Assembly (NCBI GenBank): GCA_026991395.1
Contig: JALXBP010000084.1
Coordinates: 20,221 to 54,404 of the forward strand
From: Anaerolineae bacterium
GTDB taxonomy: Bacteria; Chloroflexota; Anaerolineae; B4-G1; SLSP01
Length of the DNA: 34,184 bases
Direction: 5' to 3'
Part shown: positions 3,501-31,043 of the stretch, in pieces
How the letters are laid out: every line of letters starts with the position of its first letter
How positions within the stretch are numbered: position 1 is the first letter of the stretch
Position numbers and translations under genes: made by a program
Notes under the pieces: generated by a model
The model's database searches: none
What the model saw: the letters and a program-made list of their open reading frames with translations, nothing else
Told to the model about the DNA's origin: nothing

Positions 3501-6500
3501 AGTTCGCCGTTGACGAAGGCTTGCAGGTGATTGCCCACGGCCCGCACCTCGATGTGATACCATTCGCCCGGCACGTAGGTCATATCGAAGCGCTGGGCCA
3601 GCACGGGATAGGTCGCGCCATCGCGCTTCTGGAGCCGCATCCGTGGCGTATTGTTGCGCCACTGGAAGCGATACCAGTGGTGATCATCTACGTAGCGGAA
3701 GTAGAGGCCGAAATAGCGTTCCCCATCCTCCGGCACACGCACCATCGCGCTGAAGCTATAGTCGCTCCAACTGCCCTCTCCAGCCAGTGCTCGAACAAGG
3801 CCCGTCGTATTCTCGAAGAGCACGGCGGCCTGCGCCGGGGCGGCGGGATCGCCGATGATAGACCAGGGGGCGGGCGGCAGGAGCGTCCAGCCGTCGGCCA
3901 CGCCATCATTGAAGTCCTCGTGGAGCAGGGTGGCATTGCACCCCGGAGGGGTTACGTAGCTCTTGCCGATGTGCAGCAGCGGGGCCACGATCCTCACCTT
4001 CGCCGTGTCGGTGTAGAGATAGGTCTGGCCGTCATCCACGTAGCTCATCTCCAGGTGATTAACCTGTTGCGCGCCGCCGTAGTTGCTCTCCACATCGCGG
4101 ATCACGGCGGTCAGCACACCACTGATGCGCACCGTGCCGGGGAGATCGCCCAGCGACCAGACGACGTTCCCCGTTCCCAGGTAGGCCGGAGTGGAACTGG
4201 GTGTCGGGTGCGTCGTCGTCGGGCCGCCGCTGTTGCCGTCGCCGTCGACGGTCATCGTGAGCGCCGAGGCAACATAACCCAGCCCGTCCGGCAGGGCGTC
4301 GGTGAGCACGGTCGAGGCGTAGAGGTTGTCGTAGTCGGAGAGGGCGACATCGAAGGTGAAGACGGTCAGACTGCCGATCGTCCCCGTCTGCACCTCCGGA
4401 TTCTTCTCGAAGCGGGCCAGCAGCGTGGCGTAGGCCACATCATCAACCTGATTGTTGGTACAGCCGCTATCGCAGCCGGTCGTTGCCGTTACGACATTGG
4501 CATTGTTCCCCGTCGCGCCGTGGATGGCGCTCACCTGCGCCGTCCACGTCCCGCCTGCAGGAATGGTAGCCGGATGCCAGATTACCGTGTTGCCGCTCAC
4601 CGTCGGCACGGCCCCATCCGAGCCGTTGGTCGCCTGCAGAGCACTGTACGTGTTGCCCGCCACGTCGGTAACGACGACGTTGTAGGCGGCTCCCGTTCCC
4701 GTGTTGGTAATCCGAACCGTCCAGGTTACGCGCTCACCGACATCGGTCGTCTGCGCGTGCGGCAGTTTGGCGACGACGAGATCGGGGCCGATGATGTTGA
4801 GCGCCGTCGTCGATGTCGCGACATAAGGCCCGGTCAGACTGCAGTCCGGCACATCGTCATCGTACTGCACAACGGCGATATTCGGCCCGCCGGGCAGCGC
4901 ACAGGTGCCCGCCGGTGTATCGTTGCGGGCGCGGAAGGTGATCGTCGTCCTGCCGGAGGGGAGCACCATCCAGGTATAGACCACCGTCTGCCCCAGATCG
5001 GTCGTCCCCGAAGGCGGCGTGCTCACATAGACCGTCTCGCTGTACACGTATCCGGCGGGCAGCGTGTCGGTGAAGATCACGCCGTAAGCCGGTGGGCCGG
5101 CGTTCTCCAGCGTTACGGTGATCAGCCCGCCGCAACGGTGGAAGGAGAGAGCCGGCATATCCGGCGTAACGAGTGGATCGCCGAAGACGGGGCGCGTGCG
5201 CAGCACGACCGCATCGCCCTCCACGAGGTGGCGGCAGCCGTTCGGGCAGCCCCACGCCCCCTCCACCTCGTTCTGCATATCGAGTTCGGTACAGCCGTTC
5301 GGCTGGACGATGCGCGTGCTGATCGTCAGCACGCGGCTGGCTCCGGCGGCCAGCGGCCCAAAGGTCCACGTGATCAACTGCCCGGACTGCACGTAGCCCG
5401 GCGTCGCATCGACGAAGGTTACATTGGGGGGCAGCGTATCGGTCACGACGACGACACTCGCCGGAGCCGCATTGCCCGCGTTGGTCGCCGTGATCGTCCA
5501 GTTGACATACTCTCCCGGCTCACCGTAGACGATCTCCGTCAGCGGCGGCGTGCGGTCGATGTTCACCCCCGTCTTGACGATGGTGAGATCGGGCTGACGC
5601 ACGGGCAGGATGAAGTGCGAAGCATCGGTCAGATAGACGCCTCTGCAGACATCGCGGTAACTGGTGTGGACGACCAGTTGCCCGCCCTCGAAAGGACAGG
5701 AGGGCACGACGTCGAAACGAATGTAGACGATGCCCGAAGGCGAGATGCGTGAGAGCCATTCTCCCAGCGGCGGTCCACTCGACGGATCCCACACCAGGGT
5801 CTGGCCGCTGATCGTCGGATCGGGGCCAGGTTGCCAGTGGACGGTATCGGTGCTGACCTCGGTCGAGGCAGGGATGTAGGCCAGGCCGGTCGGCAGCGTC
5901 TCCGTAACCGTCGCCGAGTAGACGCTGAGCAGTCCGGCATTCTTCAGCGTGATCGTAACCGTGCGGCTGTAGCACGAATCGATGGGCGTCAGCATCTGGT
6001 TGGTGTTGATGAGAATGGTCGGCGGCAGTTCCACGTGGGAGCGTTCCGGGCCTACCGAGCAGCAATTCTCCCCCAGGCATCCCCGTGTCGCCGAGTAGAT
6101 GTTGGTCAGGTCCTCACAACTGACGATCTGCGCCGTGAATTTGATCGTATACATCTCCCCGGAGAGAATCGTCAGGTCTTCCCAGCGGGTCGTCTGGCCG
6201 TTGACGATGGGGGCCGCTCCGGCAGCCGAGCCGAGCGTCGAAGTCATCGTCGAGGTCAGGTAGCGCAGCCCGCTTCCGAGCACGTCGGAAAGGACAACGT
6301 TCCGCGCAGCGCCCGCACCTCCGTTGATCGCCGTCAGCGTCCACGTCACGACATCATCCTGGGCGTAGATCACTTCCGGGAATTTGGTGAGGAACATATA
6401 GGGCGCAAGGGTCAGCGGCGAACCGCCGCTATCGGAGACCGAGCACTGCTCACCCGTAACACCGTTGTCGCCACAGGCGTTTTCGTAGTAAAGCGTCGTC

Positions 6501-8926: not shown

Positions 8927-9272
8927 CGTGCTTGGCCTCCTTCCGCCACCAGGCGGTGGAAAAGACAAACTCTCCTGCGAGAACCAGGATGACGGCAAGT
9001 ACGGCCACAGGCGCGTGGCCTCCTGAGACGGGTAAGAGAGGTTCAGGCGAAACGGGGGTCCCGACCACCGGGGTCGCCGACGCGGGGGGTGGCGGCGGTG
9101 TCGGCGTCGTCGGTATCGGCGTCGGCGTTGGCGTCATCGTTGGCGACGGCGTCGGTGTCGGCGTAAAACCGGCCATGGCGGGAGCGACGCCGTATCCAGG
9201 CCAGATCACAGCCAAGGTTATGGCCACGATCAGCAGGCTCGCCACACCCCACGATAAATGCCCCTTCTTCAT
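8913..9272 (-). CDS. Small Thr/Pro-stalk membrane protein with LPxTG-like C-terminal anchor
   Basis: 119 residues. I chose the ATG at 9272 because AGGAGG lies six bases upstream; the longer listed ORF (from 9440) and the ATG at 9287 lack this. The N-terminus (MKKGHLSWGVASLLIVAITLAV) is a signal peptide or anchor, followed by a TPTPTPSP-type low-complexity stalk. The C-terminus reads LLPVSGG, a hydrophobic segment (VAVLAVILVLAGEFVF) and a charged tail (RKEAKHDEQ), the layout of a sortase sorting signal with Ser in place of Thr. The TAG stop at 8913-8915 lies inside the next gene: the giant protein's ATG overlaps it by 14 bases, so the two are probably translationally coupled. Function is unknown; it may be a wall-anchored partner of the giant protein. 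Confidence 0.75.
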   Translation of the reverse strand: MKKGHLSWGVASLLIVAITLAVIWPGYGVAPAMAGFTPTPTPSPTMTPTPTPIPTTPTPPPPPASATPVVGTPVSPEPLLPVSGGHAPVAVLAVILVLAGEFVFSTAWWRKEAKHDEQT

Positions 9273-12960: not shown

Positions 12961-15555
12961 ATGGACATTCTCGATCTACCGATATTGACAGAGGAACAAC
13001 TCCGTGCCCAATTCAGCGAGAACGCGCTCACCGTCCTGCGAAGGCGCTACCTGCGCCGCAACGAGAAAGGCGAACCGGCGGAGACGATCTCGGAGATGTT
13101 CCGTCGCGTCGCCCGCCACGTCGCCCAGGCGGAAGCGGAGATGGGGGGCGATCCGCACGACGCCGAGGAGCGTTTCTACCGCCTGCTGACCTACCTGCGC
13201 TTCATCCCCAACTCGCCGACGTTCACCGGTGCGGGCACGCCGCTGGGACAGCTCGCCGCCTGCTTCGTTCTCCCCATCAAAGACGATATGGGCCGCATCG
13301 AGGGAGGCATCTTCCAGACGCTGCGCGATGCCGCCCTCATCCAGCAAACCGGCGGCGGTAACGGCTTCTCCTTCTCGCGCCTGCGCCCCAAGGACACCCT
13401 CGTCAAGAGCAGTATGGGGAAAGCGACGGGGCCGCTCGGCTTCCTGCACGTGTACGATGTCGCCTTCGGCGAGATCGCCCAGGGGGGGACACGTCGCGGA
13501 GCCAATATGGGCGTCCTGCGCATCGACCACCCCGACATCGAAAGTTTCATCACCAGCAAGACCGACGAGAACGCCATCACCAACTTCAACATCTCCGTGG
13601 GGATGCTCGATGCCTTTATGGAGGCGGTGGAGAAGGACGAGATGTGGCCGCTCCGCTTTCCCGATGTTCTCCATCCCAAATACCGCACCTTCCACGGCAC
13701 TTTGGAGGATGCAGAGGAGGCCGGCATCCCCATCAAGACCTACCGCAAAGTCCGCGCCCGCGAGCTTTTCCAGAAGATCGTCCACCAGGCATGGCGCAAC
13801 GGCGAACCGGGCATGCTCTTCCTCGACACCGCCAACCGCGACAACCCCGTCCCGCACCTGGGACGCTACGAAAGCACCAATCCCTGCGGGGAGCAGTTCC
13901 TCCTCCCCTACGAAAGCTGCTGCCTCGGCTCCATCAACCTCGCCCGCCACCTCGCCCACACGGAGGACGGTCGCCCCACCGTCGATTGGGCCAAGCTGGC
14001 CGAATCCGTCCATCTGGCCGTGCGCTTCCTCGACGACGTCGTGGAGGCCAACGGGTACGTGCCCGCCGTCCCGCAACTGAAGGAAGCCGCCCAGCGCTCG
14101 CGCCGCATCGGGCTGGGGATCATGGGGCTGGCCGATCTCCTCTTCCATATGCGCATCCCCTACGGCAGCGAGGAGGGACAGGAGATCGCCGCGCAGTTGA
14201 TGGAATTCATCCGCTACGAGGCGATGCTGGCGAGCATCGACCTTGCCTCCCGGCGCGGTCCCTTCGCCACCATCAAAGGCAGCGTCTACGATCCGGAGAA
14301 CGTTACGTGGAGACCGCCCGCCTGGCCCGAATGGCTCGGCGGCAAGCCTCGCCACGACTGGGGACGCCCGCCCATCCACTGGGAGCGCGTCCTGGAGGGA
14401 CTGCGCCAACACGGCATCCGCAACGCGGCCCAACTGACCATCGCCCCCACGGGGACGATCGCCACCGTCGCCGGAGCCGAGGGCTACGGCTGCGAGCCAG
14501 TCTTCGCTCTGGCCTACACGCGCAACGTCCACGAGGCCGATCGCATCATCCCGCTGCGCTACGTCAGCAAGGCCTTCACCCGCGCCCTGGAAGAGACCGA
14601 CCTCGATGAAGCGACCAGGGAGGCCATCTTCGAGCAAGTCGCCCTCACCGGCAGTTGTCAGCAGGTCGAGGAGGTGCCGGAAGCCATCCGCCGCGTCTTC
14701 GTCGTCGCCTCCGACGTCCCCGCCGAAGGGCACGTCCGCATGCAGGCGGCCCTCCAGATTTTCGTCGATGCGTCCATCTCCAAGACGATCAACTTCCCCG
14801 CCGATGCGACGGAAGAGGATGTTGCCAATGCCTTCAAACTTGCCTGGAAGCTGGGCTGCAAGGGGCTGACCGTCTACGTGGCCGGTTCCCGTGAACACGA
14901 GGTACTGGAGACGGAGGCGACGCGCAAGGCGAAGAACGGCGAAGCTCCGGCCCCATCTGACGAGGCCGCAGGAGAGACAACGGAGGAGGAACCTTGCACG
15001 CCGCCGAAGCTCAAGCCGTGGGAAGGCCCCACCATTCGGCCCCGCCCACCACGGCTCGTGGGGCGCACATACCGCATGCCGACCCCCGTCGGTGCGGCCT
15101 TCATCACCATCAACAGCAACGGGCACGACCAACCCTTCGAGGTCTTCATCAACGTCGCCAAGGCCGGCTCGGAGACGGCGGCGATGGCCGAAGCCATCGG
15201 CAGGCTCATCTCCCTCGTCCTGCGGCTCCCCTCCGCGATGGAGCCGATCGACCGGCTGGAGGAAGTTACGGCCCAGCTACGCGGCATCGGCGGCGGGCGG
15301 CCCTTAGGCTTCGGGCACAACCGCGTCCTCAGCCTCCCCGACGGCGTCGCCCGCGCCATCCAAACCTACCTGGAGGAATACGAGGCCGCCGATGAAGACG
15401 AGGACGAGGAGGAGCCCCCCGCCTTCGAGGAGCCGCCCGTCGTGCAACAGGCACTCTTCCCCACCGGCGATCTCTGCCCCGTCTGCGGCCAGCCGACGAT
15501 GGTCTACACCGAAGGATGTCGTCGCTGCTACAGTTGCGGTCACAGCGAATGCTAA
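12961..15555 (+). CDS. nrdJ: Adenosylcobalamin-dependent (class II) ribonucleoside-diphosphate reductase
   Basis: 864 residues; the ATG follows AAAGGAGG. It reduces ribonucleotides to deoxyribonucleotides using a radical from adenosylcobalamin, so it works with or without oxygen. C101 (QLAACFVLP) is one of the redox pair. NPCGEQ at residues 307-312 holds the thiyl-radical cysteine C309 with N307 and E311. [18 protein letters not shown] and [12 protein letters not shown] are further active-site signatures. The C-terminal third has the class II TSCR-like domain ([24 protein letters not shown]), a Glu/Asp-rich linker and a zinc ribbon (C839PVC ... [12 protein letters not shown]) thought to regenerate the active-site cysteines. 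No separate small subunit is present. The preceding NrdR is its probable repressor. I see no cobalamin riboswitch in the short leader. Confidence 0.96.
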
Positions 15556-15667: not shown

Positions 15668-16279
15668 TCACGGATATTGTACAGCTATGTAAGCCATCTG
15701 CCGTAATTGGATTACCCATATTTCAAACAATGCAACACCGGAAGGCAATTGAGGCTGGCTCGCCCAATCTATCGGTCGCGCTTGTGCTGCCATCCCGATG
15801 GAGCGAGCAATACTCCTAACATGTTTAGCAGTTGTAGCATTGCGATGCGCAAAGAAGTTTCGCATTCGGCGTAAGTCATCCACCGGTGATGGTGTCATGC
15901 CGAGTCCTCCGCTGACATTTAGAAAATTCGTGATACTGAGTCTTTGGGCTGCACTGATACTCTCATTGGCATCCGCCCAACGAGGTTCACGCCTACCCCC
16001 TTTACGGGTTTTGATCTTAGCCCTACTAATAGCATCACCCCTTGAGCGAATATCTGGTGCTTTAGGGACAATCACGCCGTTAATTGAATAGGGACGAGCA
16101 TAACTTGAAATAATAATCAGTTCCCTACAAAATCTCGCCCAAGCGTCATGCAATCTTATCACACTCATTTCCCTCGCTTGCACGGGGCAGATTGCACTAT
16201 GCGCATTGTTAAAGCAATGTAGCAATACCGCCGTTTCCATGACGAAACGGCGATACAGTTTTCCCAAGTCTTTCAGCAT
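15668..16279 (-). CDS. HEPN-type protein (putative ribonuclease), partner of the DUF262 protein
   Basis: 203 residues. The best visible motif is RNFFAH at R140-H145 (DDLRRMRNFFAHRN), the Rx4H signature of HEPN RNases, in a mostly helical protein. HEPN proteins are common in toxin-antitoxin and abortive-infection systems, where they cut RNA. The ATG at 16279 is only three bases after the stop of the DUF262 gene (TGA AGA ATG), so the two are cotranscribed and probably act together. The middle part (residues about 80-105) is rich in Arg/Lys. The exact HEPN family is not recognised. Base composition is AT-richer than the neighbouring housekeeping genes, suggesting transfer. Confidence 0.6.
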   Translation of the reverse strand: MLKDLGKLYRRFVMETAVLLHCFNNAHSAICPVQAREMSVIRLHDAWARFCRELIIISSYARPYSINGVIVPKAPDIRSRGDAISRAKIKTRKGGRREPRWADANESISAAQRLSITNFLNVSGGLGMTPSPVDDLRRMRNFFAHRNATTAKHVRSIARSIGMAAQARPIDWASQPQLPSGVALFEIWVIQLRQMAYIAVQYP

Positions 16280-16282
16280 TCT

Positions 16283-17356
16283 TCACAACCGCTGTGGCAA
16301 TAATGCTCGAAAATAAACAGGGAAGCGCTTTCGACGGCTGGCAATACGCTGGGTAGTACCTGACGACGCCATCCAGAACTCTTTCAAATATGCTTCCGAA
16401 GGGGGCTCATCACTCTCCAATATTTGTGACAAGTAGCCTAGATTCTCTATCACCATAGAAATATTGCTGAGAGCGTGAGAACTCCTCGCCGGCATCCTCT
16501 CACCCATTTTCCCTTGGGGAATACCAAACAAGGCATGAGCAACTGCGGCATATAACATCAAGAAATGCGGAGATCTGCTAATTGGGCCATCAAGAGCTAA
16601 GGAAAGATTCCGTACAATAAATTCTATAACCTCATTAACTTTCAAGATCGTTTCTTCCTTGTTGGGGAAATCTTTATCATATTTAACGTACAGCTTTCTG
16701 ATATTGCGTTGTCCCCCATCAGTAACCCCTTCCAAAATCACTCCAAACATTTCTGCCATTAACGAATCGTCCAACATCCTCACACGTTGGCGCATAGAGA
16801 GAATCGAAAATCTTTCCCATAAGTCCTTACCCCATTGCATAGATGTATCATGCACCGCCCATTTGAAATCACCCTGAAATTCCGCATGGCGCAACTCAGC
16901 ATCGTTAAGTCGCACGTTATATGAATTCAATCGTGAGAATATTTCTAATACCTCCTCATCTGACGCATTGATTAGAAGTTCAACTGCCACAGTGTAGGAT
17001 AAAAAATGCTCTTGGATATCTTCCGAGAGAGTACTGTATCTATACCCTCTAAACTCCTTAGCTCTGCTTCCCAAGATCAGCTTGTCATCGGCAAACTCAA
17101 TAATTGCACGCAACCTCTGCTGCCCATCTACCACTTCACGGTATGATTTCTTAGTTCTCAAATCAATGCGAGAACGTATGTAGATTTTAGGTATGGGGTA
17201 ATTTCTTAGAATAGTATCTATCAGGTAAGACTTAGCAGCTTGCGTCCACACACTCCGGCGCTGAAAATCAGGATTTAGCTTAAGCTGTTTTTTTCTATGC
17301 CATTCAAGGAAGTCCGCAATAGTATATTGCTGAAGGTTTGATGTGGCCATTTTCAT
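16283..17356 (-). CDS. DUF262 domain protein (ParB/GmrSD-N-like)
   Basis: 357 residues. The N-terminal half is a typical DUF262 domain: LNPDFQRRSVW at residues 27-37, LIDTILRNYPIPKIYI, and VVDGQQRLRAI at 75-85 carrying the DGQQR motif. DUF262 is related to the ParB/Srx NTPase-nuclease fold and forms the N-terminal domain of GmrSD-type modification-dependent restriction enzymes. The GmrD-like HNH domain is not visible in the C-terminal half, so the effector may be the HEPN protein encoded three bases downstream. ATGs occur at 17356 and 17350; AAGAGG upstream suits either. It starts 33 bases after an attC-like GTTAGAC end, so with the HEPN gene it would form one cassette. Defence against phage or plasmids is an inference. 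Confidence 0.85.
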   Translation of the reverse strand: MKMATSNLQQYTIADFLEWHRKKQLKLNPDFQRRSVWTQAAKSYLIDTILRNYPIPKIYIRSRIDLRTKKSYREVVDGQQRLRAIIEFADDKLILGSRAKEFRGYRYSTLSEDIQEHFLSYTVAVELLINASDEEVLEIFSRLNSYNVRLNDAELRHAEFQGDFKWAVHDTSMQWGKDLWERFSILSMRQRVRMLDDSLMAEMFGVILEGVTDGGQRNIRKLYVKYDKDFPNKEETILKVNEVIEFIVRNLSLALDGPISRSPHFLMLYAAVAHALFGIPQGKMGERMPARSSHALSNISMVIENLGYLSQILESDEPPSEAYLKEFWMASSGTTQRIASRRKRFPVYFRALLPQRL

Positions 17357-17384
17357 GCACCTCTTGAAATCCGATTTCTCAAAA

Positions 17385-17525
17385 GCCTGTCTAACAACAA
17401 CGTCAGTGAAGCTGCAACGCTACCACGGACATTATTGGCGACATATCTTTCTCGCAGGAGCCCCACTAGACTCACGAGAAGTACATCCGCCGGATGCAAG
17501 ACTAGACATTTTCTGCAGCTTTGCC
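17385..17525 (-). repeat. attC-like spacer between the phosphoribosyltransferase and DUF262 genes
   Basis: The minus strand ends with GTTAGAC (17395-17389), which fits the integron R' rule GTTRRRY. The plus-strand sequence at 17385-17412 (GCCTGTCTAACAACAACGTC...) matches the site at 29926-29953 in 22 of 28 bases. Internal palindromes are present (CATCCG-G-CGGATG and TTCTCG ... CGAGAA). A clear R'' (RYYYAAC) after the phosphoribosyltransferase stop is not seen, so the left arm is degenerate or absent. Confidence 0.45.
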
Positions 17526-18122
17526 CTAATTGGGCTTGCGCGAATCTCGAACATAGCCATATCCCTTGTACATCCAAGGCATACGGAAATCCCCGGTAAT
17601 CTCTTTACCAAAATAATCTGGGCGATATGCAGAGGTAACCCCCTTTACAAAGCAAGCCGTCCGTATCTCTTGAGGATTTACTTGCTCAATTTCATGGAGA
17701 AAGAATTTCATTGTTCCTCCAGTAAGAACATCGCCAGCCACTAATAGTACCTTTTTCCCTCTGAGTGGGGCAAAGTCGATCATTCTGTTTTCCACTTCTA
17801 TCCGTTCCCCATCATGCCATTCATACATTCGATCCACACCTAGTAAGGGAATATTTCGCATCTTGTCCGGTACCCGTAAGTTTCCTGACAATAAGGCCCC
17901 AAGGATTGAACCACCTCGACCAATTCCCACAATCACGTCTGGAACAAACATATCACTGCTCATCTGGGAGATTAATTTCTTCACCAATTTATCCACCTCC
18001 GCCCAGCTAAAACTCCGCAGGTTAAGCCACACCTCTGCCGTTTTATACAAAGTGGCTAAAAAGCCAACAAATGCCAACGCATAACTCGCAATGTCGAAAA
18101 GGTTTTTTACATCCATTGTCAT
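17526..18122 (-). CDS. Membrane-anchored phosphoribosyltransferase-domain protein
   Basis: 198 residues. One N-terminal transmembrane helix (IASYALAFVGFLATLY, about residues 11-26) is followed by a type I phosphoribosyltransferase fold: GIGRGGSILG at 67-76 and the PRPP loop LLVAGDVLTGGT at 126-137. The substrate is unknown; the hood region is not like a known purine or pyrimidine enzyme. Its ATG overlaps the stop of the histidine phosphatase gene (ATGA), so the two are translationally coupled and probably act on related metabolites. A membrane-tethered phosphoribosyltransferase beside a phosphatase, DUF262 and HEPN genes suggests a nucleotide-related defence or signalling role rather than housekeeping salvage (inference). 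It is AT-rich compared with the flanks. Confidence 0.8.
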   Translation of the reverse strand: MTMDVKNLFDIASYALAFVGFLATLYKTAEVWLNLRSFSWAEVDKLVKKLISQMSSDMFVPDVIVGIGRGGSILGALLSGNLRVPDKMRNIPLLGVDRMYEWHDGERIEVENRMIDFAPLRGKKVLLVAGDVLTGGTMKFFLHEIEQVNPQEIRTACFVKGVTSAYRPDYFGKEITGDFRMPWMYKGYGYVRDSRKPN

Positions 18123-18718
18123 CGCCCCACCAAAAACCCTAACTCCATATTGAGAGATTGCAGTTGTAAGTCACCCTCTTCCTTGAATAATAGTGTTGTC
18201 ACGCTGCAATTTGAACAAGGTAATAAACGGAACTTATTCAAGTCAAGTCCAAGAACTTGAGCAACTATTAGTCGGATAGTTGTGCGGTGAGAAACGCAAG
18301 CAACACTGCGAACTGATGTTTTCTGAGCAATAAACAGTATTTCATCATATACCTCCAATGCATGTTTCCGTATGCTTTTACCACCTGGGAAAGTCACCTC
18401 CCCTGGTGCAGTATGCCAACGCCGCATCACCTCATCGTCATATGTACGGGGTACTCCCTCATAATTTCCATAATCGAATTCAATTAATCCTTCAGTTATA
18501 ATTATCTCATGTTGTGGGAAAATAATCTTTGCGCTCTCAAGTGCACGGGACAATGGACTCGCAAACACTGCTTCTACAGGGAATTTAGAGAAAAATTCTC
18601 TAAGTCGATAGCATTGTTCCCTTCCAGTCTGAGATAAAGGAACATCACTCACTCCAGAAAGCAGATTTTTTTGGTTCTGCACACTTTCACCATGCCTAAT
18701 CAAATAAAGGCGCTTCAT
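18119..18718 (-). CDS. Histidine phosphatase superfamily protein, island 1
   Basis: 199 residues from the ATG at 18718; the ORF track starts one codon earlier at a TTG. GGGGG lies nine bases upstream. It has the superfamily signature LIRHGES with catalytic H9, the arginine-containing VFASPLSRALESA, the acid residue region GLIEFDYGNYEG (as in CobC/GpmB-like phosphatases) and the second catalytic histidine in VSHRTT (H144). It would transfer phosphate from a small molecule to H9. It is the first gene behind the island 1 promoter and overlaps the phosphoribosyltransferase gene by four bases. A distant relative occurs in island 2 (29306-29878). The substrate is unknown. Confidence 0.85.
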   Translation of the reverse strand: MKRLYLIRHGESVQNQKNLLSGVSDVPLSQTGREQCYRLREFFSKFPVEAVFASPLSRALESAKIIFPQHEIIITEGLIEFDYGNYEGVPRTYDDEVMRRWHTAPGEVTFPGGKSIRKHALEVYDEILFIAQKTSVRSVACVSHRTTIRLIVAQVLGLDLNKFRLLPCSNCSVTTLLFKEEGDLQLQSLNMELGFLVGR

Positions 18719-18814
18719 CAAATCTTACCCCCGAAATGAATACAGAGAAACCCATACTAGTGCGACGCGTAAGCACCAAGCACCAGAGCGTCACGGATAC
18801 ACACAGAGGCCCAT

Positions 18815-18975
18815 TCCATTATGCAGCATAACTTCTACATAACGCCTTCCCCTTTGAAACCATATGCGACTCCTCCCTTGCCCTTGAAACATCCCGGCTA
18901 CACCTCCATCACCGATGATCCTTCATTACCCTACGCTTCAAGCAAAATATATCCTATCTTGAGAATAGTGTCAAG
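18815..18975 (-). repeat. Island 1 leader, homologous to the island 2 leader
   Basis: Three blocks match the leader at 30907-31021 in the same order. 18933-18975 matches 30979-31021 (37 of 43). The GTTTCAA block near 18884-18897 matches the GTTTCGAA block near 30932-30946. 18815-18832 matches 30907-30924 (15 of 18). The spacing between blocks differs. I see no gene in 18722-18975 on either strand; the listed 65-residue plus ORF has no support. Confidence 0.75.
18946..18974 (-). promoter_or_regulatory. Sigma-70 promoter of accessory island 1
   Basis: On the minus strand TTGACA (18974-18969), a 17-base spacer, TATATT (18951-18946). It is about 230 bases upstream of the first gene, leaving a long leader. 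It is nearly identical to the island 2 promoter. Confidence 0.8.
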
Positions 18976-19070
18976 AACGAGATACGTGCCCACCAATCCG
19001 GGGAACGGCTCAGCCTGAGAGGGCAGAGGAAGGTGTCGCCGAGGTGCAGGCATTGGAGGATTCATTGACC

Positions 19071-23269: not shown

Positions 23270-25150
23270 GTGGCCGCCAGGCAGCGCCGCCGCACCTTCG
23301 CGCCGCTCATCCTCATCCTCTGGGGAGCGATGGTGCTCCGCTTCTACCACCTGGGCTTGCAGTCGTTCTGGAACGACGAGGGCAACGCGGCCCGCCTGGC
23401 GGAGCGGAGCCTCGCCCTCATCGTCAAGGGGGCGGCGATGGACATCCACCCTCCCGGCTACTACCTCCTGCTCCACTTCTGGCAACTCGGCGCGGGGAGG
23501 ACAGAGTTCGCGCTGCGGGCCTTTTCCGCGCTGTGCAGTCTGCTCACCGTGGCCGTCGTCGCCGCGCTGGGGCGCAGCGTGGGCGGGCGGCGCGCAGTTG
23601 CGACCGCGGCGATCCTGATGGCTTGGCACCCGCTGGCCGTGTACTACGCGCAGGAGGCGCGAATGTACGCGCTGCTCGGTCTCCTGGCCGCGCTGACGCT
23701 CTGGGCGGGAGAGCGCCTCCGCTCGCGAGGCGACCGCTCCACGGCGGTGATGCTGGCCGCGCTGCTGACCGCGGGGCTTTACACGCACTACGCCTACCTC
23801 TTCGCGATAGCGGCGCTGAACGGCGCGGCCATCATCGAGGCCCTGCGGCGCAGCACGAGGCGGCCCTTCCCCCGCCGCCTCTGGCTCGCCGCGAACGGCT
23901 TCGCCGCGCTGGCCTTCCTCCCCTGGCTGCCCCACCTGCGCAAGCTGACCACGTGGAAGCCGCCCGACCTGGCCCAGACCGGGGCCTTCACCCACCTGTG
24001 GACGGCGCTCCTCGTCGGCACCACGCATCCCGCGCCGCCCGCGTGGCTCCTTTGGCCTGCCCTGGCGCTCCTCCTCTGGGGCACAGTGCGCGGGATGGGC
24101 CGACGGCCCTTCCTGACCACGGCGGCGCTCCTCCTCGTCCTCCTGCCGCCGCTCCTCTTCCTCGCCACCGGAAGCTACCGCCCGGCCTACCTGAAGTTCC
24201 TGCTCGTCTCGCTCCCCGCGCTGACGGTACTCATCGCCGCCGCGACGGCGGTCAGGACGAGGTGGGCATCGTGGCTCGCCTGCCTCCTCCTGGTCGCGCT
24301 GTTCATCCCCCAAGAGACGGCGCTGGACCATCTCTATCACGACCCCGCCTATCGCCGCACCGACTACCGCGGCATAGCCGCCCTCATCGCCGCCGAGGGA
24401 CGGCCCGGCGATGCCGTCGTGTTGGACGCGCCCAATCAGTGGGAGGTCTTCACCTACTACTACCGCGGCCCGCTGGAGGTCTTCCCCGCGCCCTACCACC
24501 CAGATCCGGCGGAGGCGCAGGCTTGGCTCGCCACGCTCCTCGACGGGCATGAGCGGCTCTTCGTCCTCTACTGGGGAGAGCGGGAGGCCGATCCCCAAGG
24601 CTACATCGAGCGCGGCCTGGCCGAGCGGAGCTACAAGGCGGGGGAAAGCTGGATCGGCGAGGTGCGCCTGGCCCGCTACGGCGTCGCGCCGCTGCCGGAG
24701 GAGCCGACCCGTCCGCTGGAGGCGACCTTCGGCTCCGCCATCCGCCTGGAGGGCACGGCCATCGGCGGCGAATGCTTCCGCGGCGGGGAGATCATCCCCA
24801 TCTCCCTCTTCTGGCGGGCGACGGCGAAACCGGCGACACGCTACAAGCTCTTCGTCCACCTCCTGGACGCGGCGGGGAACCTCGTCGCCCAGTACGACGG
24901 CGAACCGGTCGGCGGCTTCCGACCGACGGATGGCTGGGAGCCGGAGGAGCGTCTCATCGATCGCTGCGGCCTTCTCCTCCCCGCCTCGCTCCCCCCCGGA
25001 CGGTACCGTCTGCGCCTGGGCCTCTACGACGCCGCGGGGACACGGCTCCCCGTCCGCAGCGGGGGTGAGGTGGACGACGGCGTGCTATTCGCGACTTTGG
25101 AGCTTCCCTGTCACGACGCCCAGGGGGTGAGCAGCCGAGCCGGGCAGTGA
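23270..25150 (+). CDS. GT39/PMT-like membrane glycosyltransferase
   Basis: 626 residues from GTG at 23270 (AAAGGGAG upstream, eight bases after the previous stop). It is polytopic, with about ten to twelve transmembrane segments in residues 10-350. The first loop carries FWNDEGNAARLAE and DIHPPGYYLLLHFW, the acidic and PPGY motifs of polyprenyl-phosphate-sugar-dependent glycosyltransferases (GT39/GT83/ArnT-like). It would glycosylate protein or lipid on the outer face. The C-terminal 200 residues form a beta-rich extracellular domain. The last residues and the stop codon are encoded by the first 23 bases of a repeat shared with 27648-27696, so the original C-terminus has probably been altered by an insertion or recombination event. 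Confidence 0.87.
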   Translation: MAARQRRRTFAPLILILWGAMVLRFYHLGLQSFWNDEGNAARLAERSLALIVKGAAMDIHPPGYYLLLHFWQLGAGRTEFALRAFSALCSLLTVAVVAALGRSVGGRRAVATAAILMAWHPLAVYYAQEARMYALLGLLAALTLWAGERLRSRGDRSTAVMLAALLTAGLYTHYAYLFAIAALNGAAIIEALRRSTRRPFPRRLWLAANGFAALAFLPWLPHLRKLTTWKPPDLAQTGAFTHLWTALLVGTTHPAPPAWLLWPALALLLWGTVRGMGRRPFLTTAALLLVLLPPLLFLATGSYRPAYLKFLLVSLPALTVLIAAATAVRTRWASWLACLLLVALFIPQETALDHLYHDPAYRRTDYRGIAALIAAEGRPGDAVVLDAPNQWEVFTYYYRGPLEVFPAPYHPDPAEAQAWLATLLDGHERLFVLYWGEREADPQGYIERGLAERSYKAGESWIGEVRLARYGVAPLPEEPTRPLEATFGSAIRLEGTAIGGECFRGGEIIPISLFWRATAKPATRYKLFVHLLDAAGNLVAQYDGEPVGGFRPTDGWEPEERLIDRCGLLLPASLPPGRYRLRLGLYDAAGTRLPVRSGGEVDDGVLFATLELPCHDAQGVSSRAGQ

Positions 25151-25176
25151 GCGGAGCGAAGGTGTTGGCTCAAGGG
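25128..25176 (-). repeat. Cassette-border repeat A
   Basis: It matches 27648-27696 in 44 of 49 bases, in direct orientation. Copies A and B flank the metalloprotease gene. Copy A supplies the end of the GT39 coding sequence and lacks the GTTGG end seen in copy B. Confidence 0.8.
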
Positions 25177-25266
25177 AAGAGCAGCGTGTCGGCTGGAAGC
25201 GCTTGTCGGGCAACGCTCTCGACTACACGAGCCAAGCATATCGCAGCGTACTACCTTTAAAACGAA

Positions 25267-27615
25267 TCACCTGGTAATCATGGGCAAGTAATTCTTATAT
25301 TGATATATCGAAGGCTTGGCACACCAGTCGAATTCGACAAAATCAAAATCGGCCTGAAGTGGGTTATCCTGCCATTCGTTTATCAGGTGAACACCAGCAT
25401 AGAGAGTATTGGCCGCGCTGAAATGAACATCCCCTACTTGGATCCAATCCGTACCAGTCCGACTATACCAAGCAGTGAAGCTGTTGTTATCTCGCTCGAA
25501 TCTGAGATACACATCAGAAGCAGAAAGTATAATATCTCCACTATCTGTATATGTACCACTAACACGATAAATAAACCGCAGATGCCCACCAGTCTTGAGT
25601 TCTAGCCTGATATAGTTATTTTCGTCTTGCCAGATGAGAAGGCCAGCACCCTGGTATTCATCAGGCACGGGCACAATTCTTACATGGGTTTGAACAACAA
25701 ACCTCCTTCCTACCGGCTGCAAGAGACGAGGAGCATTTAGATTGAGAAACAGATCGTGGCCACTGCCCGGAGTCATTAAGCGCAAGTAACCGGGATTCGC
25801 GGTCAGGCTGTAAGTGGAATCGGCCAACGGATCGACCCACAACCATCGCAAGTCAAGCATGGAAGTGTTGAAAAGATCGCAAAAGCCCGGCGGGAAAAAG
25901 TCGCTATCCCACAAGGTAACATACACTATATCGTCTTTCTCAAAAGTCTCTGCCCAAAGGTTGGCTCGACGATTGACATAGTTGAAGGTCAAGTTTAACC
26001 CTATTCGTCGACCATGCTGCAGAATCAGTCCAGTTTGGGAATTGTACGGAATGGCTATTTGGACAAGGTAGCCACTGCCGTAACTACGTGCATATCGACC
26101 AATGTCTGACTCCGTAATAAGTCTTCCAAACGGGTAGTTAGGGTCATCATCCCACATCGGATAGCCCTTGGTGGCAATGATGGTTTCACTGCTATCCCAA
26201 ATATGTGCCTTGCCTATAATCAAAGGGGCAGTTGGGTCTGAATAACTTGGGTCTATGTTGATCTCATAGTTATCTTTGCCGTGAAACCATCCATCAGCGT
26301 TGGCGTCAATCATAAGATGTATTTCCGCAAACCTATCAACCTGTATCATCAGGTAGAGATAGTTGCTATCCCAGTTGGCGTATACTGTGGAGGAAAAAGG
26401 CGCGTTTGCAGCATTGACACCGCTAATGAGTATATCCCAACCGGCAGGGTCCCCATTGAGCGGCAAGGTCTTCTCTGACATCTGTGTATTGATGCGATAC
26501 AGAGGTTCAAAATCATTGCCGTCCAAAGCTTTATCCCCATCTGTATCAGGAGCAGTCAGATCGGCGTTTCTGAAAAAACCCGCAATACTCTCTTCGAGAT
26601 CTCCATATCCATCTCCATCTGTATCAACAAGAGCTGTTGAACTTCCAAGGGACTGTTCCGTGATGGGCAGAGATGGATTTTGGTCTGGGACACCATCTCC
26701 GTCCGCATCAGGAGCCTGGATAATATCTCCCCAAGGAGGACGTAACACGAGCCAATTATCGGCTGGCCAGATTTTCATTCCATAGGCCCAAAAACTCCAG
26801 TTTTCCCCAAATGCACCTTCCAAATCCCAAGGGCGATCTGGAAAGAAATACTCAGGGTAGCCGCTGTTTTCCAGCATAAAGTCAATAGTATGCTGAATCT
26901 CGTGGGGAAACGCAGTAGAAAATACCTCTGCTCCAGACGGCTGAAATATCGGAATCTCTGTTATGCCGGTGAGACCCAGTTGCCAATAGATGCCCCCACC
27001 CAAGCCTCCATAGGCCGCTGGCAATGAGCCGTTGTTATGTGCCCATAGGTAATTGATGCTATCAAACTGATCCCTCTCGACTCCTCGATTCAACAGATCA
27101 GATTCAACAGATACGCCATCCCCATCATCATCAGTAGGATTCAACCAGTAGCCGCCATTCTGGTGTTGCGTGAACTCAGATGAGTCTTTATAATCATCGA
27201 TAATCATAAAAGTTAGATTAATATAGAATTTAAAATGAGACTGCCGCCAAATGAATCTGGCCGTGTTTGCAACATGCTGTTGAAGGAGATCAATATCACT
27301 TGAGCTTAATGTGCCAGCAGCCGTATTAGGATAAATTACGATAAGAGTGTCGAGCTCAGTGTATGCCGTCGTGCCAGAGGCTGCCTGGTAAGCAGACTGT
27401 GGAACCTGCAAGGGAGGAAATAAATAGGGGTTTCGAATTTCGATATAGCCTTGAGGTTGATCTATGGGAGCGTCAAATACCGCATAGATGTAGGGCGATC
27501 CTGCATTTGGCAGGTTATTTACGCTCGAAGTTGGCGTAACCTGCAAGCCAGTGAATAAGACTAATGCAAAAACTATTCGAAGATATTTGTGACTAAACAT
27601 TCTGATACTCCTCAT
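25267..27615 (-). CDS. Secreted HExxH metalloprotease-like protein with Ca-binding repeats, CBM9-like and concanavalin-like domains
   Basis: 782 residues. The signal peptide is near residues 5-25 (YLRIVFALVLFTGL); the ATG follows GAGGAG. The N-terminal 330 residues include FPHEIQHTID with the zinc motif H238EIQH242. Thrombospondin-3/EF-like calcium repeats follow (DADGDGVPDQNP, DTDGDGYGDLEE, DTDGDKALDGND). Residues about 400-560 look like a CBM9/DOMON-type domain (ANWDSNYLYLMIQVD, NYEINIDP). The last 200 residues are concanavalin-like (DUF1349 type: YQGAGLLIWQDENNYIRLEL, FTAWYSRTGTDWIQVG). The end NYLPMITR resembles the YLPLxxR tail common on secreted Chloroflexota proteins (from memory). It has no close operon partner, is AT-richer than the flanks, and lies between direct repeats A and B. 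Confidence 0.85.
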   Translation of the reverse strand: MRSIRMFSHKYLRIVFALVLFTGLQVTPTSSVNNLPNAGSPYIYAVFDAPIDQPQGYIEIRNPYLFPPLQVPQSAYQAASGTTAYTELDTLIVIYPNTAAGTLSSSDIDLLQQHVANTARFIWRQSHFKFYINLTFMIIDDYKDSSEFTQHQNGGYWLNPTDDDGDGVSVESDLLNRGVERDQFDSINYLWAHNNGSLPAAYGGLGGGIYWQLGLTGITEIPIFQPSGAEVFSTAFPHEIQHTIDFMLENSGYPEYFFPDRPWDLEGAFGENWSFWAYGMKIWPADNWLVLRPPWGDIIQAPDADGDGVPDQNPSLPITEQSLGSSTALVDTDGDGYGDLEESIAGFFRNADLTAPDTDGDKALDGNDFEPLYRINTQMSEKTLPLNGDPAGWDILISGVNAANAPFSSTVYANWDSNYLYLMIQVDRFAEIHLMIDANADGWFHGKDNYEINIDPSYSDPTAPLIIGKAHIWDSSETIIATKGYPMWDDDPNYPFGRLITESDIGRYARSYGSGYLVQIAIPYNSQTGLILQHGRRIGLNLTFNYVNRRANLWAETFEKDDIVYVTLWDSDFFPPGFCDLFNTSMLDLRWLWVDPLADSTYSLTANPGYLRLMTPGSGHDLFLNLNAPRLLQPVGRRFVVQTHVRIVPVPDEYQGAGLLIWQDENNYIRLELKTGGHLRFIYRVSGTYTDSGDIILSASDVYLRFERDNNSFTAWYSRTGTDWIQVGDVHFSAANTLYAGVHLINEWQDNPLQADFDFVEFDWCAKPSIYQYKNYLPMITR

Positions 27616-27625
27616 CTGCAGCGAT

Positions 27626-27696
27626 AAGCCACCAACGAAGCGGCGGATGAGCAGCCGGGCCGGGCAGTGAGCGGAGCGAAGGGGGTGACTTAAGGG
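27626..27696 (-). repeat. Cassette-border repeat B
   Basis: Its first 57 bases are related to repeat C at 30757-30812 (both read AAGCCACC..AAC then GCGGCGGATGAGC on the plus strand) and its last 49 to repeat A. On the minus strand it ends in GTTGGTG 15 bases before the metalloprotease ATG. It looks like a degenerate member of the attC-like family; I do not see a good complementary left arm. Confidence 0.6.
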
Positions 27697-27723: not shown

Positions 27724-27936
27724 CTATGGACGGTTGGTTCCGCCACCAATACGGCTGCCCATCTCTCTTCCCCGCTCCCTGCCCGCTATCCAAATCGGAT
27801 ACCGCGCATTAGCACCCCGCGTTACCCGCTGCACCTTCCCCGTCGCCACCTCAGCCAGCCAGATGTCCGGCACGCCTCCCGCATCCGTGCTGAACGCCAG
27901 CCACTTAGAAGGTGTAGTGCTTCGCCGAATACACAA
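27724..27936 (-). pseudogene. Fragment of a TolB/PD40 beta-propeller protein
   Basis: The 70-codon frame contains about 40 residues of one and a half PD40 blades (KWLAFSTDAGGVPDIWLAEV then GKVQRVTRGANARYPIW). After YPIW the expected SPDG is lost and the frame continues into unrelated Arg/Gly-rich sequence. There is no ribosome-binding site. I read it as a relic of a larger gene, carried or truncated when the island formed. Confidence 0.55.
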
Positions 27937-27945
27937 ACCCTCGGC

Positions 27946-29280
27946 TTATTCCCCAAAGCGCCGGAGGAGTTGGTAGATAGCATTTGCGCCAAAACCGATT
28001 GCTTCAACGGGAATGCGTTCATCTACACCATGGATCACCTGGATGAAATCGAAATCTCTTGGAAGCTGCATCGGCACAAAACCGTAAGTTTGAATCCCCA
28101 AGCGAGCGAAGAAGCGCGCATCGGTAACCCCGCTCATCAAAAAAGGAACTGGAATCCCATCGGGATCGGCCTGACGCAAAATATCAGCCAGCAAATCAAA
28201 GAGGCCCATATCCGGTTCAGCCGGGCCGGGATCATAACGTATGACTTCGATCTCGACATCGTGGCCGACAATGCCGGTTAACTCCGAGATCAAGTCATCG
28301 GGGCTATAACCGGGAAGCAGCCGCCCATCGAGTCCAATAGACACTTCGCCTGGTATGACATTGATTTTGGAGCTTCCGTGCAGGACGGTCGGACTTACCG
28401 TGTTGTGCAAAAGGGGATCAAATGGACGGCTATGTTCCCCCATTGCATCCAGCACCATGTTCGTGAATAGTGGGTTCGTCAATTGACCGAGAACGAGTTT
28501 CTTCACTCCCCCACTTGCCGATGCCACGGCATCGAACATGAGCCGCGCGGCTGGTGTGATATGCACCGGCAGACGATTCTCATCCAACAGCCGAAGGACC
28601 TGAGACAACTTCGCCATCGCTCCTCCACGGACGGGTATTGCCCCGTGTCCACCAGTACCGCGCACTGTCATGTTCAGCCAGCACAATTGTTTCTCCGCAA
28701 TCATAATAGGGTAGAAACGTTGTTTGCCAACATAGAAGGTAAATCCACCGAATTCTCCTATGGCATATTTGATTCCTTCGAACACTTTGGGGTGATTCTC
28801 GACCAGATACCTCGAACCAAAATCGCTGCCTGCCTCCTCGTCGCTGACAATCGCAAGGACTACATCTCCGGGCAATTTCAAGGCATCCCCTTTTGCCCGC
28901 AAAAAGGCAGCCAGCATCATGGCTACTCCGCCCTTCATATCAAGAGCACCACGTCCCCACACAAATCCATCGCTCACTTCACCGGCAAACGGGGGATGCT
29001 GCCATGGCTGATTCTCCGTTGTCACAACGTCTATGTGTCCGTATAGCAATAACGGAGGTGCGTTGCCCATCCCCGGCAATCGTGCGATCAAATTGGGGCG
29101 CTCAGGCGTTTTGCCGAGAATGGTCGTTTTGATCCCGGCTTCGGCCAGCAGGCCGTTGATAAAGGAGATGCATTCAGCCTCGTTGCCAGGCGGATTGGTG
29201 GTATCGAATCGGATAAGGCGCTGGAGCAGCTCTGCGGGGCGCTCATAGATGGCCGACCGGTTGCGTTTATTAGATGTCAA
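27946..29280 (-). CDS. M20-family metallopeptidase (ArgE/DapE/carboxypeptidase-like)
   Basis: 444 residues from a TTG start at 29280, well supported by AAAGGAGG eight bases upstream. It is a cytoplasmic di-zinc amidohydrolase. Metal and catalytic residues are visible: GHIDVV (H82, D84), GALDMKGG (D114), SDEEAGSD (E148/E149) and the late histidine in VIHGVDERIP. The dimerisation domain includes GTGGHGAIPVRGG. The exact substrate (N-acyl amino acid or dipeptide) cannot be told. It lies 25 bases after the second histidine phosphatase gene, so the two form one unit, probably a single cassette downstream of the attC-like site at 29930. Composition is nearer to the chromosome than that of the Abi_C gene. 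Confidence 0.9.
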   Translation of the reverse strand: MTSNKRNRSAIYERPAELLQRLIRFDTTNPPGNEAECISFINGLLAEAGIKTTILGKTPERPNLIARLPGMGNAPPLLLYGHIDVVTTENQPWQHPPFAGEVSDGFVWGRGALDMKGGVAMMLAAFLRAKGDALKLPGDVVLAIVSDEEAGSDFGSRYLVENHPKVFEGIKYAIGEFGGFTFYVGKQRFYPIMIAEKQLCWLNMTVRGTGGHGAIPVRGGAMAKLSQVLRLLDENRLPVHITPAARLMFDAVASASGGVKKLVLGQLTNPLFTNMVLDAMGEHSRPFDPLLHNTVSPTVLHGSSKINVIPGEVSIGLDGRLLPGYSPDDLISELTGIVGHDVEIEVIRYDPGPAEPDMGLFDLLADILRQADPDGIPVPFLMSGVTDARFFARLGIQTYGFVPMQLPRDFDFIQVIHGVDERIPVEAIGFGANAIYQLLRRFGE

Positions 29281-29305: not shown

Positions 29306-29878
29306 TCATTCGAGTATTGATACCACCTTAGCCGATGGCATATTCATGACTATTGCCGTAGGCATCTTCAATTGCTTCCAGAACTCAAAGGGGGTTACTC
29401 CTCGTACTACTCGGCTAACATACAAACTCATCACCGTCCCATGCGACACGATGACCATATCGTATCCCGTTCCCTGTTTCCAACAATCTGCTATCGCTTT
29501 CTCTATACGCTCTGATGCTTGCAATGCGGTTTCCAGGCCAAAAACTTTCTCTGTCGGATGTTCATAAAACTTTCGCAACATCTCGTCAAAACCATCTCCT
29601 ACCCAACCTACGTTACGACGATCGTGTTCTCGTAGCCCTTCATGTACAGCAACTGGCACATTGTCCAATTGCGAAGCCAGAATTCTTGCCGTTTCCTGCG
29701 CTTTATTCTCTGGACTCGTAAAAATGATCTTGATTGTATAGGTCTCGAGGTTCTCGGCTAATTGAAGGCACCGCCTCCGTCCTTCATCCGACAAATGCCA
29801 TTGGAAGGAAGGAACGGCGGGATCAACTTCTGGGATCGAATGACGGACAAGGATCAGATTTGACAAGCCGGGCTCCAT
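29306..29878 (-). CDS. Histidine phosphatase superfamily protein, island 2 (RHS variant)
   Basis: 190 residues. The phosphohistidine motif is LVRHSIPE (R12, H13), with Ser replacing the usual Gly. FTSPENKAQETA carries the second motif but with Asn-Lys where an Arg is common. GLREHDRR supplies the acid region, and VSHGTVM holds the second histidine (H146). Catalysis is plausible but the changes may alter specificity. The ATG at 29878 has AGGAG 13 bases upstream, rather far. It follows the attC-like GTTAGGC end by 52 bases and precedes the M20 gene. It is the same superfamily as the island 1 phosphatase but only distantly similar. Confidence 0.8.
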   Translation of the reverse strand: MEPGLSNLILVRHSIPEVDPAVPSFQWHLSDEGRRRCLQLAENLETYTIKIIFTSPENKAQETARILASQLDNVPVAVHEGLREHDRRNVGWVGDGFDEMLRKFYEHPTEKVFGLETALQASERIEKAIADCWKQGTGYDMVIVSHGTVMSLYVSRVVRGVTPFEFWKQLKMPTAIVMNMPSAKVVSILE

Positions 29879-29929: not shown

Positions 29930-30038
29930 GCCTAACAATAGCGTCAGCGGCGCGGCGAGTTTGTCCAGAAGCATTGCGGCTCGAAGTCGTCTGGTTGTCC
30001 CACAGCGAAGCTGCTGTCCGCTGCAGACGTGGTTGGGT
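29930..30038 (-). repeat. attC-like recombination site between Abi_C and histidine phosphatase genes
   Basis: On the minus strand it begins with ACCCAAC (30038-30032), 12 bases after the Abi_C stop, and ends with GTTAGGC (29936-29930). These fit the integron core rules RYYYAAC and GTTRRRY. The outer arms pair imperfectly (CGTC-TGC-AGCGG against CCGCTGACG), with small internal hairpins (ACAGC ... GCTGT and CCAGA ... TCTGG). Length 109 bases, within the attC range. ACCCAAC is the exact complement of the GTTGGGT that precedes the Abi_C gene at 30768-30762, as expected for the two ends of one cassette. Confidence 0.6.
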
Positions 30039-30049
30039 GACATCGTTTT

Positions 30050-30745
30050 TTAATCTCCGTCCGCAAAACGTTCTTGGTAGGTTTCCAACAAAAATAATCC
30101 AATTGTCGTCAACGCATTTACAGCAAGCCTAGCATGTCTTCTACCTAGCCGATACTGATGATGCCCTTTTCCATGAAAATCACTGTATTTTGTCCGCAAT
30201 GTTGCTATTCCCGCACCTACGTTCACTAAACCGCCAAGTATGCGTTTGATATCACTGTCAGCATGGTTTTCAGGAGACAATTGCATCTTGCGGAAAACCG
30301 CTTTTTGAAGCGACTGAAGACTCTCGTCTTTAGGGTACGCTTCGTCAAATGAATCAAGGATAGCTTTACAAATGCTCTCTAATGTTGTAGAAGCAAGACC
30401 GATTGCGCTTTCTGGGCGTACATCTACATCTCGTAATGCTTTGTCAAAGTCTCTCTTCGCATGTGCATATGCTGACCCATCCAATAAGCTCCGCAAATGG
30501 ATTGCACCGGTAATTTCACTGGATGGAATATCAAGCCCTAAATCCAGAGCAATTTGCGTGACAATGCTATCATCCACATTACTCAACAACTCTTTCACAT
30601 AAACCCATTTGCTGTGAACCATTGCAGCACCGTCATTCGCAATACCAAAGCCACCAAGATAAACGTTGATGTCTGTGGTTGTCATTGTGCTTTGAAGACG
30701 GCGACCTATTTGATCAATTAGATTGAAGCGGTCTATCTTTCTCAT
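30050..30745 (-). CDS. Abortive-infection family protein (Abi_C/AbiJ-like)
   Basis: 231 residues. The C-terminal half matches the Abi_C domain: STTLESICKAILDSF near 120-134, YPKDESLQSLQKAV near 137-150, KRILGGLVNVGAGIATLRTKYSDFHGKG at about 167-194, and RRHARLAVNALTTIGLFLLET at the end. R184 and H191 (Rx6H) would be the HEPN-like RNase residues. The N-terminal 100 residues are not recognised and may sense the trigger. No clear ribosome-binding site precedes the ATG at 30745, which lies 17 bases after the GTTGGGT border. It is the first gene behind the island 2 promoter and the only gene in its putative cassette. Role inferred: phage-triggered growth arrest. Confidence 0.82.
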   Translation of the reverse strand: MRKIDRFNLIDQIGRRLQSTMTTTDINVYLGGFGIANDGAAMVHSKWVYVKELLSNVDDSIVTQIALDLGLDIPSSEITGAIHLRSLLDGSAYAHAKRDFDKALRDVDVRPESAIGLASTTLESICKAILDSFDEAYPKDESLQSLQKAVFRKMQLSPENHADSDIKRILGGLVNVGAGIATLRTKYSDFHGKGHHQYRLGRRHARLAVNALTTIGLFLLETYQERFADGD

Positions 30746-30761
30746 ACAACTGAATTAAGCC

Positions 30762-30850
30762 ACCCAACAGGGCGGCGGATGAGCGGCCTGGCCGGGCGGC
30801 GAGCGTAGCGAGCCAAGTCCGGCCAAGTCCGTTCCATCCGCCAGTCAGGC
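30762..30850 (-). repeat. attC-like palindromic site upstream of Abi_C (contains repeat C)
   Basis: On the minus strand GCCTGAC (30850-30844) is followed by a long imperfect stem, with GGCGGATG pairing CATCCGCC, TGGCCGG pairing CCGGCCA, and an apex of GCTCGCTACGCTCGC. It ends in GTTGGGT (30768-30762). Length 89 bases, typical of attC. GCCTGAC departs from RYYYAAC at one base. Plus-strand 30757-30812 is related to repeat B. A further GTTAGGC sits at 30879-30873 in an 8-bp palindrome (GCAGCCTA ACTG TAGGCTGC) and could be an attI-like or older cassette end. Confidence 0.6.
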
Positions 30851-30906
30851 ATTGCTCGCTCCGCTCGCGGCAGCCTAACTGTAGGCTGCAAATCTGTTCC
30901 ATATAC

Positions 30907-31021
30907 TCCATGACGCAGCACAACTGCCGCATTCGAAACGTCTCGGCAGCGTCGGGTATGCCTCCGACATCTTGCACCACGCCCCAAGCAAAATATATCC
31001 TACCTTCAGAAGACTGTCAAG
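30907..31021 (-). repeat. Island 2 leader, homologous to the island 1 leader
   Basis: It shares three ordered blocks with 18815-18975, the strongest being 30979-31021 (37 of 43). No gene is seen between 30746 and 31043; the short listed minus ORFs at 30714 and 30742 run through the palindromes and have no support. Confidence 0.75.
30992..31020 (-). promoter_or_regulatory. Sigma-70 promoter of accessory island 2
   Basis: On the minus strand TTGACA (31020-31015), a 17-base spacer, TATATT (30997-30992). It is about 245 bases upstream of Abi_C. It stands back to back with the plus-strand promoter at 31044. Confidence 0.8.
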
Positions 31022-31043
31022 CAAAACTACGCTATCCCTTCAT

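Follow-up and report, generated by a model that had tools for sequence, protein, structure and literature searches.

The locus analysed here raises the question of what kind of element could reach the end of a core gene and supply it with its last codons and its stop. The window, i.e., the whole stretch of DNA that was analysed, spans 34,184 nucleotides of an Anaerolineae bacterium (contig JALXBP010000084.1, positions 20,221 to 54,404), and coordinates refer to it throughout. A PMT_2/GT39-like glycosyltransferase gene (23270-25150, + strand; Pfam PF13231) has its last 7 codons and its TGA inside a repeat that recurs on the other side of a putative metalloprotease gene. The initial annotation had interpreted this arrangement as the insertion of a segment flanked by near-identical direct repeats, and these repeats are indeed present. 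Repeat A (25125-25176) and repeat B (27645-27696) are direct, with 46 of 52 bases identical (88%), and lie 2520 bases apart; the score of their alignment corresponds to z=19 over shuffles, and none of 1000 shuffles scored as high.

Repeats of this kind occur also elsewhere. In the 52-base register a third copy is present in the window at 30777-30828 (62% identity); a relaxed pattern search found related copies on other contigs of the same genome (two on C45 and one on C50), and further stretches akin to A and B were read on contigs C102 and C85. On the gene strand, the fuller copies have GCTTAAC at one end and GTTGGGC at the other and therefore show RYYYAAC...GTTRRRY, the outer boxes of attC, the site that is folded and cut by the integron integrase IntI. 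When compared with the attC-type copies on other contigs, B gave z=12-15, with the GTTGG of the R' box included, and A gave z=4-7 (copies on C102, C45 and C50). Since B and A reach these values while both remain below detection by the attC covariance model (R2, see below), we call them decayed (or atypical) copies of one attC type. On the - strand, B together with an R'-like GTTGGTG (27630-27636) makes up an attC-type site at 27630-27696, just before the metalloprotease gene, whereas A, from which a clear R' box is absent, marks the distal end of the array as a decayed site of attC type. A cassette consists of a gene and an attC, and the distance of 2520 bases in the same orientation would correspond to one cassette length. 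The internal loop TTGCTCGCTCCGCTCGCGGC does not have the same orientation in all copies of attC type: in C45:21278 and at 30850-30880 of the window it is inverted with respect to C50 and C45:19404, in copies that otherwise match (L067 about 1260-1450; L068 about 14880-15070).

The R2 model was built from 11 sites on the other contigs of this genome and 5 sites found beside intI in relatives; its training alignment contains nothing from the window. The specified stem is paired in 90% of the cells of this alignment, with 54 compensatory cells as compared to 20.5 in shuffles (0 of 500 as high). In the window, R2 detected two attC sites on the - strand, both outside the training set: one of 109 bp at 29930-30038 (R'' ACCCAAC ... 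R' GTTAGGC; 42.6 bits, E 2.8e-10) and site C at 30762-30850 (R'' GCCTGAC ... R' GTTGGGT; 24 bits, E 6.6e-5), which contains the third copy of the A/B repeat. The next matches had E values of 0.05 and worse. A plain text scan for R''/R' boxes gave 4 hits in the window vs. 0-2 in shuffled sequence, and because this barely exceeds the shuffled level the attC calls rely on the covariance model. Over the whole genome R2 found at least 19 attC, with RYYYAAC/GTTRRRY boxes and a paired L''/L' stem.

The sites detected by R2 and the repeats belong to an AT-rich block of about 5.9 kb (25.1 to about 31.0 kb), which extends past 27.7 kb and in which all genes are on the - strand. Going from 31025 down to 25125, it contains a leader (described below), a gene-less cassette (30851-30872 with attC site C), a gene for an Abi_C/AbiJ-like protein (30050-30745; Pfam PF14355, PADLOC AbiJ 7e-19), the attC at 29930-30038, a histidine phosphatase gene (29306-29878; Pfam PF00300), an M20 peptidase gene (27946-29280; Pfam PF01546, GC3 0.56), the 3' remnant of a PD40/TolB-like cassette gene (27771-27906), repeat B, the metalloprotease gene and repeat A. 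The PD40 remnant was recognised by its match in the related genome G028, where a leader-headed array has a first cassette protein whose C-terminus is 72% identical to it over 43 aa. The histidine phosphatase, M20 and PD40 genes share a single interval with no internal attC, and for this reason one has to assume one or more deletions or else a cassette with several genes. GC3 is 0.36-0.56 in the genes of the array and 0.85-0.91 in their neighbours; in particular, it is 0.45 in the metalloprotease segment vs. 0.91 in the glycosyltransferase gene. Rfam gave no match.

On these grounds, the metalloprotease gene is very probably a gene cassette, the most distal one in an integron-type array on the chromosome, with A and B as decayed attC copies, rather than a free-standing insertion delimited by the two repeats. 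The direct repeats at both flanks and the foreign composition would also suit a discrete segment inserted between them, as the earlier reading had it, for instance a transposon or a composite element. We regard this as very improbable: no transposase was found in the block by the Pfam scan of its named genes, the same repeat type occurs at other sites of the genome and as an attC at 30762-30850 in this very array, and the foreign block runs on to 31.0 kb. A transposon with terminal direct repeats was rejected, the repeat type being found on other contigs and its third copy being an attC; together with the alignment scores of the copies, these findings refute the discrete segment as a full explanation.

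The cassette gene between A and B (25267-27615, - strand) codes for a protein of 782 aa with a signal-like hydrophobic stretch at its N-terminus, an HExxH motif (HEIQH, residues 238-242) followed 24 residues on by a glutamate (Glu 266), calcium-binding-like DxDGDG repeats and the C-terminus YLPMITR. The sole region recognised by Pfam is a C-terminal GH43_C2/DUF1349 domain, and the name metalloprotease therefore rests on the HEIQH motif, which suggests this activity. The open reading frame, the signal-like stretch and the motif of the secreted metalloprotease proposed by the initial annotation are all there, and its protease label is to be read as motif-based. The annotation's view that the segment is foreign is supported, since no full-length homologue was found either in 80 relatives or in a scan by sequence pattern across 84,980 species genomes, a method that picks up only close relatives. 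A search of PDB sequences with the full protein gave a similarity of the calcium repeats to an OmpA-family protein (E 7e-4), the rest being at chance level; an AlphaFold2 model of residues 31-383, obtained without alignment, had a mean pLDDT of 32 and was set aside. Several cassette proteins of G028 share with this protein a YLPLVLR / YLPMITR-like C-terminal tail (L128, L127, L125, L063 and window 25267-27615), which is possibly a sorting or anchoring signal.

At the other side of repeat A, residues V620-Q626 of the glycosyltransferase (VSSRAGQ, 7 residues) and its TGA (25148-25150) are encoded by the repeat, as initially proposed. Neither the window tail CHDAQGVSSRAGQ nor the repeat is present in any of 24 glycosyltransferase homologues from relatives (about 47-55% identity), so that the observation named as refuting the initial annotation, the same tail and repeat in homologues without the island, was not made. 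Most of these homologues end a few residues past the last beta strand; their tails vary, and a few carry long extensions. The window protein keeps the last beta strand, LFATLELP, has a complete conserved domain and gains 7-13 residues. With the domain complete and the strand intact, the array added 7-13 residues and a stop codon, nothing recognisable being lost. The idea that the native C-terminus was replaced is not borne out in these terms, considering that LFATLELP is retained, that tails are variable among homologues and that no conserved end is visibly missing. An empty site beside the glycosyltransferase gene could not be shown in nine relatives, because the gene neighbourhood is not conserved among them. 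The locus nevertheless offers a concrete case of an attC as the source of a tail and a stop codon for a core gene. Chromosomes can also take up integron cassettes at non-classical sites termed attG (Loot et al., 2024, as cited in PMC12444791), and, as far as that citation describes it, such an insertion could explain why the array stops where an unrelated gene has its stop codon. By the same description attG events need no leader, whereas a promoter-attI-like leader precedes the array here, and no intact attG-attC junction was shown at this locus.

This leader occupies 30872-31025 (- strand, 154 bases; model R1, 94.3 bits, E 9.8e-27, this copy being in the training alignment). It has promoter-like boxes, TTGACA (31015-31020) and, 17 bp further, TATATT (30992-30997), and ends with an attI-like site, CAGCCTACA-GTTAGGC (30873-30888, - strand; R box 30873-30879), which was assigned by comparison with the intI-adjacent attI of relatives and has a shortened spacer. 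The second AT-rich block of the window shares with this one a 37-base stretch (89% identical), which is the start of the longer conserved leader. R1 is a sequence model trained on five of the nine leaders that this genome contains (two on C45, one on C50, two on C84 and one each on C133, C102, C93 and C85); G006 gave two more, and 97 other relatives gave none. The common layout is TTGACA-17-TAT(A)T(A/C)T followed by a tail with an attI-like end. Seven of the nine are followed by an attC within 6 kb and in the same orientation, and the two that are not include the second leader of the window; no intI lies beside any of the nine. In terms of contigs, 14 of the 19 attC detected in the genome are on those carrying leaders, and four more are on C81. 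The start of C81 and the end of the C45 array overlap, both having the same methyltransferase gene (L066:1-350 / L108:1-470), and the latter array therefore probably continues onto C81 with at least four more attC. Leaders are 60-99% identical to one another, so that most of them are not assembly duplicates; the C45 pair (99%) could be an assembly effect.

These leaders also bear on whether the whole pattern might be a chance clustering of a GC-rich dispersed repeat, REP- or MITE-like, with unrelated horizontally acquired genes. It is true that the attC-type copies hold GAGCGNAGCGAG motifs and that some of them form a gene-less unit after another attC. Still, chance of this kind is hardly credible in view of the covariation of the attC stem, the same-orientation order of leader, gene, attC and gene at seven loci, and the attC that lie beside intact intI in relatives.

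The link between leaders and integrons comes from the relatives, 20 of 80 of which have a full-length IntI over the family cut-off. In these, the stretch that separates intI from the first cassette has GTTAGGC or GTTGGGC at its end, preceded at the same spacing by CCTAA or TCTAA (G032, G028 and G021) or by TTATAA (G046). The leaders of the present genome end with CCTAATTATAAGTTAGGC; the CCTAA-N5/6-GTTAGGC end is as in the intI-adjacent attI of G032, G028 and G021, and the end TTATAAGTTAGGC is as in G046. The leader end is also reminiscent of class 1 attI1, a resemblance that is not counted as evidence. A search with the intI-adjacent leader of G028 found it at four further places in G028 itself, two more in G032 and one each in G030 and G042, with 71-87% identity. 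In total, G028 has five and G032 three copies of their own leader, one of which, in each genome, is beside the integrase gene. Each of the four satellite leaders of G028 is followed by attC that point the same way, and satellite copies mostly retain the CCTAA...GTTRGGC core. In G028 intI is found at one place only, and thus promoter-attI leaders without intI coexist with one intact integron in the same chromosome. This layout with multiple copies is not universal, since the leaders of G021 and G046 are present as single copies in their own genomes.

No IntI above the TIGR02249 cut-off was found in the present genome, which contains only recombinases below it (XerC/XerD-like and one other tyrosine recombinase); the assembly consists of 153 contigs, and this absence is not proof. 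The integrase may have been lost or be missing from the assembly. One might think that each leader was once a complete integron whose own intI was later deleted, which would imply the gain of many integrons and the loss of every integrase. The divergence of the leaders (60-99% identity) would fit such a history, which we consider improbable, given that a search of the whole of this genome gave no trace of intI with an E value of 0.001 or lower and that, in G028, four of five leaders have no intI and the fifth is intact. In addition, homology among leaders has a sharp start at the -35 box, upstream of which they share no sequence. This sharp boundary suggests a putative leader unit made of promoter plus attI; no second recombination site was seen at its 5' side.

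CALINs, i.e., attC arrays without integrase, are common and may originate from off-target insertion or from loss of intI (PMC8618304). With at least two attC and no intI nearby, the array is itself a CALIN, and an ordinary decayed one could have arisen by off-target recombination or from a dead integron, its leader being either a gene-less cassette with a promoter or a repeated host promoter. This explanation is unlikely, though several points are in its favour: no IntI is present in the assembly, multi-locus CALINs are known in Xanthomonas and gene-less cassettes with promoter activity have been described (PMC12444791), and the attI is decayed in one of the window's arrays and shortened in the other. 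It does not account for the leader of G028 and G032, which lies directly beside intact intI, in the position of attI, nor for the core that satellite copies mostly keep. Moreover, the sequence of the leader is of attI type and not of attC type, and it heads seven different arrays here.

We read the leaders as satellite platforms, each made of a promoter and an attI without intI, probably served in trans by one integrase. The array of the window would be read on the - strand from the leader at 31025-30872 to the metalloprotease gene, provided that the predicted promoter is active. The array was most likely built by an IntI, its gene located elsewhere or no longer present, that took up circular cassettes at the leader attI and at resident attC. 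The distal end of the array lies within or next to the glycosyltransferase stop codon, abutting the 3' end of that gene, with the stop provided by the last attC; the array would then have been frozen as its sites decayed. The shortened spacer of the array's attI and the decayed or atypical A and B speak against an integron reading, as do the lack of an IntI over the cut-off, of an empty site and of attC above threshold in the second array, the interval shared by three genes and the two leaders that no attC follows. We propose tentatively, and at somewhat less than even chances, that the integron forms a multi-site system in this bacterial order, scattered intI-less promoter-attI platforms being filled in trans by an integrase from a single locus.

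A single attI near the integrase is the typical layout of integrons (PMC9024848), which are known from Chloroflexota (PMC8618304). The arrays have in common with sedentary chromosomal integrons the attC R''/R' boxes and stem, the single orientation of the genes and, as predicted from sequence, a promoter and an attI-like site before the first cassette, and the relatives have a full-length intI in the expected place; they differ in that none of the nine leaders has intI beside it and that one chromosome has several leaders instead of one attI (PMC9024848). With CALINs they share the lack of a nearby integrase, the presence at several loci and possibly mobilisation in trans by IntI (PMC8618304, PMC12444791): in Xanthomonas, CALINs occur at seven loci and a functional IntI can mobilise CALINs in trans (PMC12444791). 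The definition of CALIN names attC only, whereas the arrays here have a conserved promoter-attI-like leader. No published report of repeated intI-less promoter-attI leaders was found in a literature search of partial coverage; the integron itself is known, and the layout of leaders would be new as far as we found. If the proposal holds, capture and expression of cassettes would be spread over the genome, new genes being acquired at many places, and arrays filed as clusters lacking integrase may be active docking sites whose integrase is encoded at another locus.

The second leader (18774-18979, - strand; R1, 129.8 bits, E 1.1e-37, itself in the training alignment) has a decayed attI end and precedes the other AT-rich block (15.65-18.98 kb), flanked by a ribonucleotide reductase-like gene and a greA-like gene. 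On the basis of Pfam, defence-gene and ORF evidence, its genes (15668-18721, all on the - strand) code for a histidine phosphatase (18119-18721), a phosphoribosyltransferase (17526-18122), a GmrSD_N protein (16283-17356) and a protein without assigned family (15668-16279). No attC above the R2 threshold was found in this array; a weak attC-like remnant, GTCTAGT ... GTTAGAC (17389-17507, - strand), was recognised by eye between two of the genes. The cassettes of such arrays are also a source of unknown genes; here they include a gene of Abi type, one of GmrSD type and the metalloprotease gene, whose predicted secreted product is exceptionally long for a protease and has hardly any known relatives. 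In the C102 array, an early cassette contains, as judged by eye, a RelE-like toxin gene and a small gene upstream of it (L086:5090-5570), which is likely the antitoxin. At the left end of the window (1-8960, - strand), a stop-free frame of 2986 codons runs off the end; it has a signal-like start near 8.9 kb and may code for a giant secreted repeat protein.
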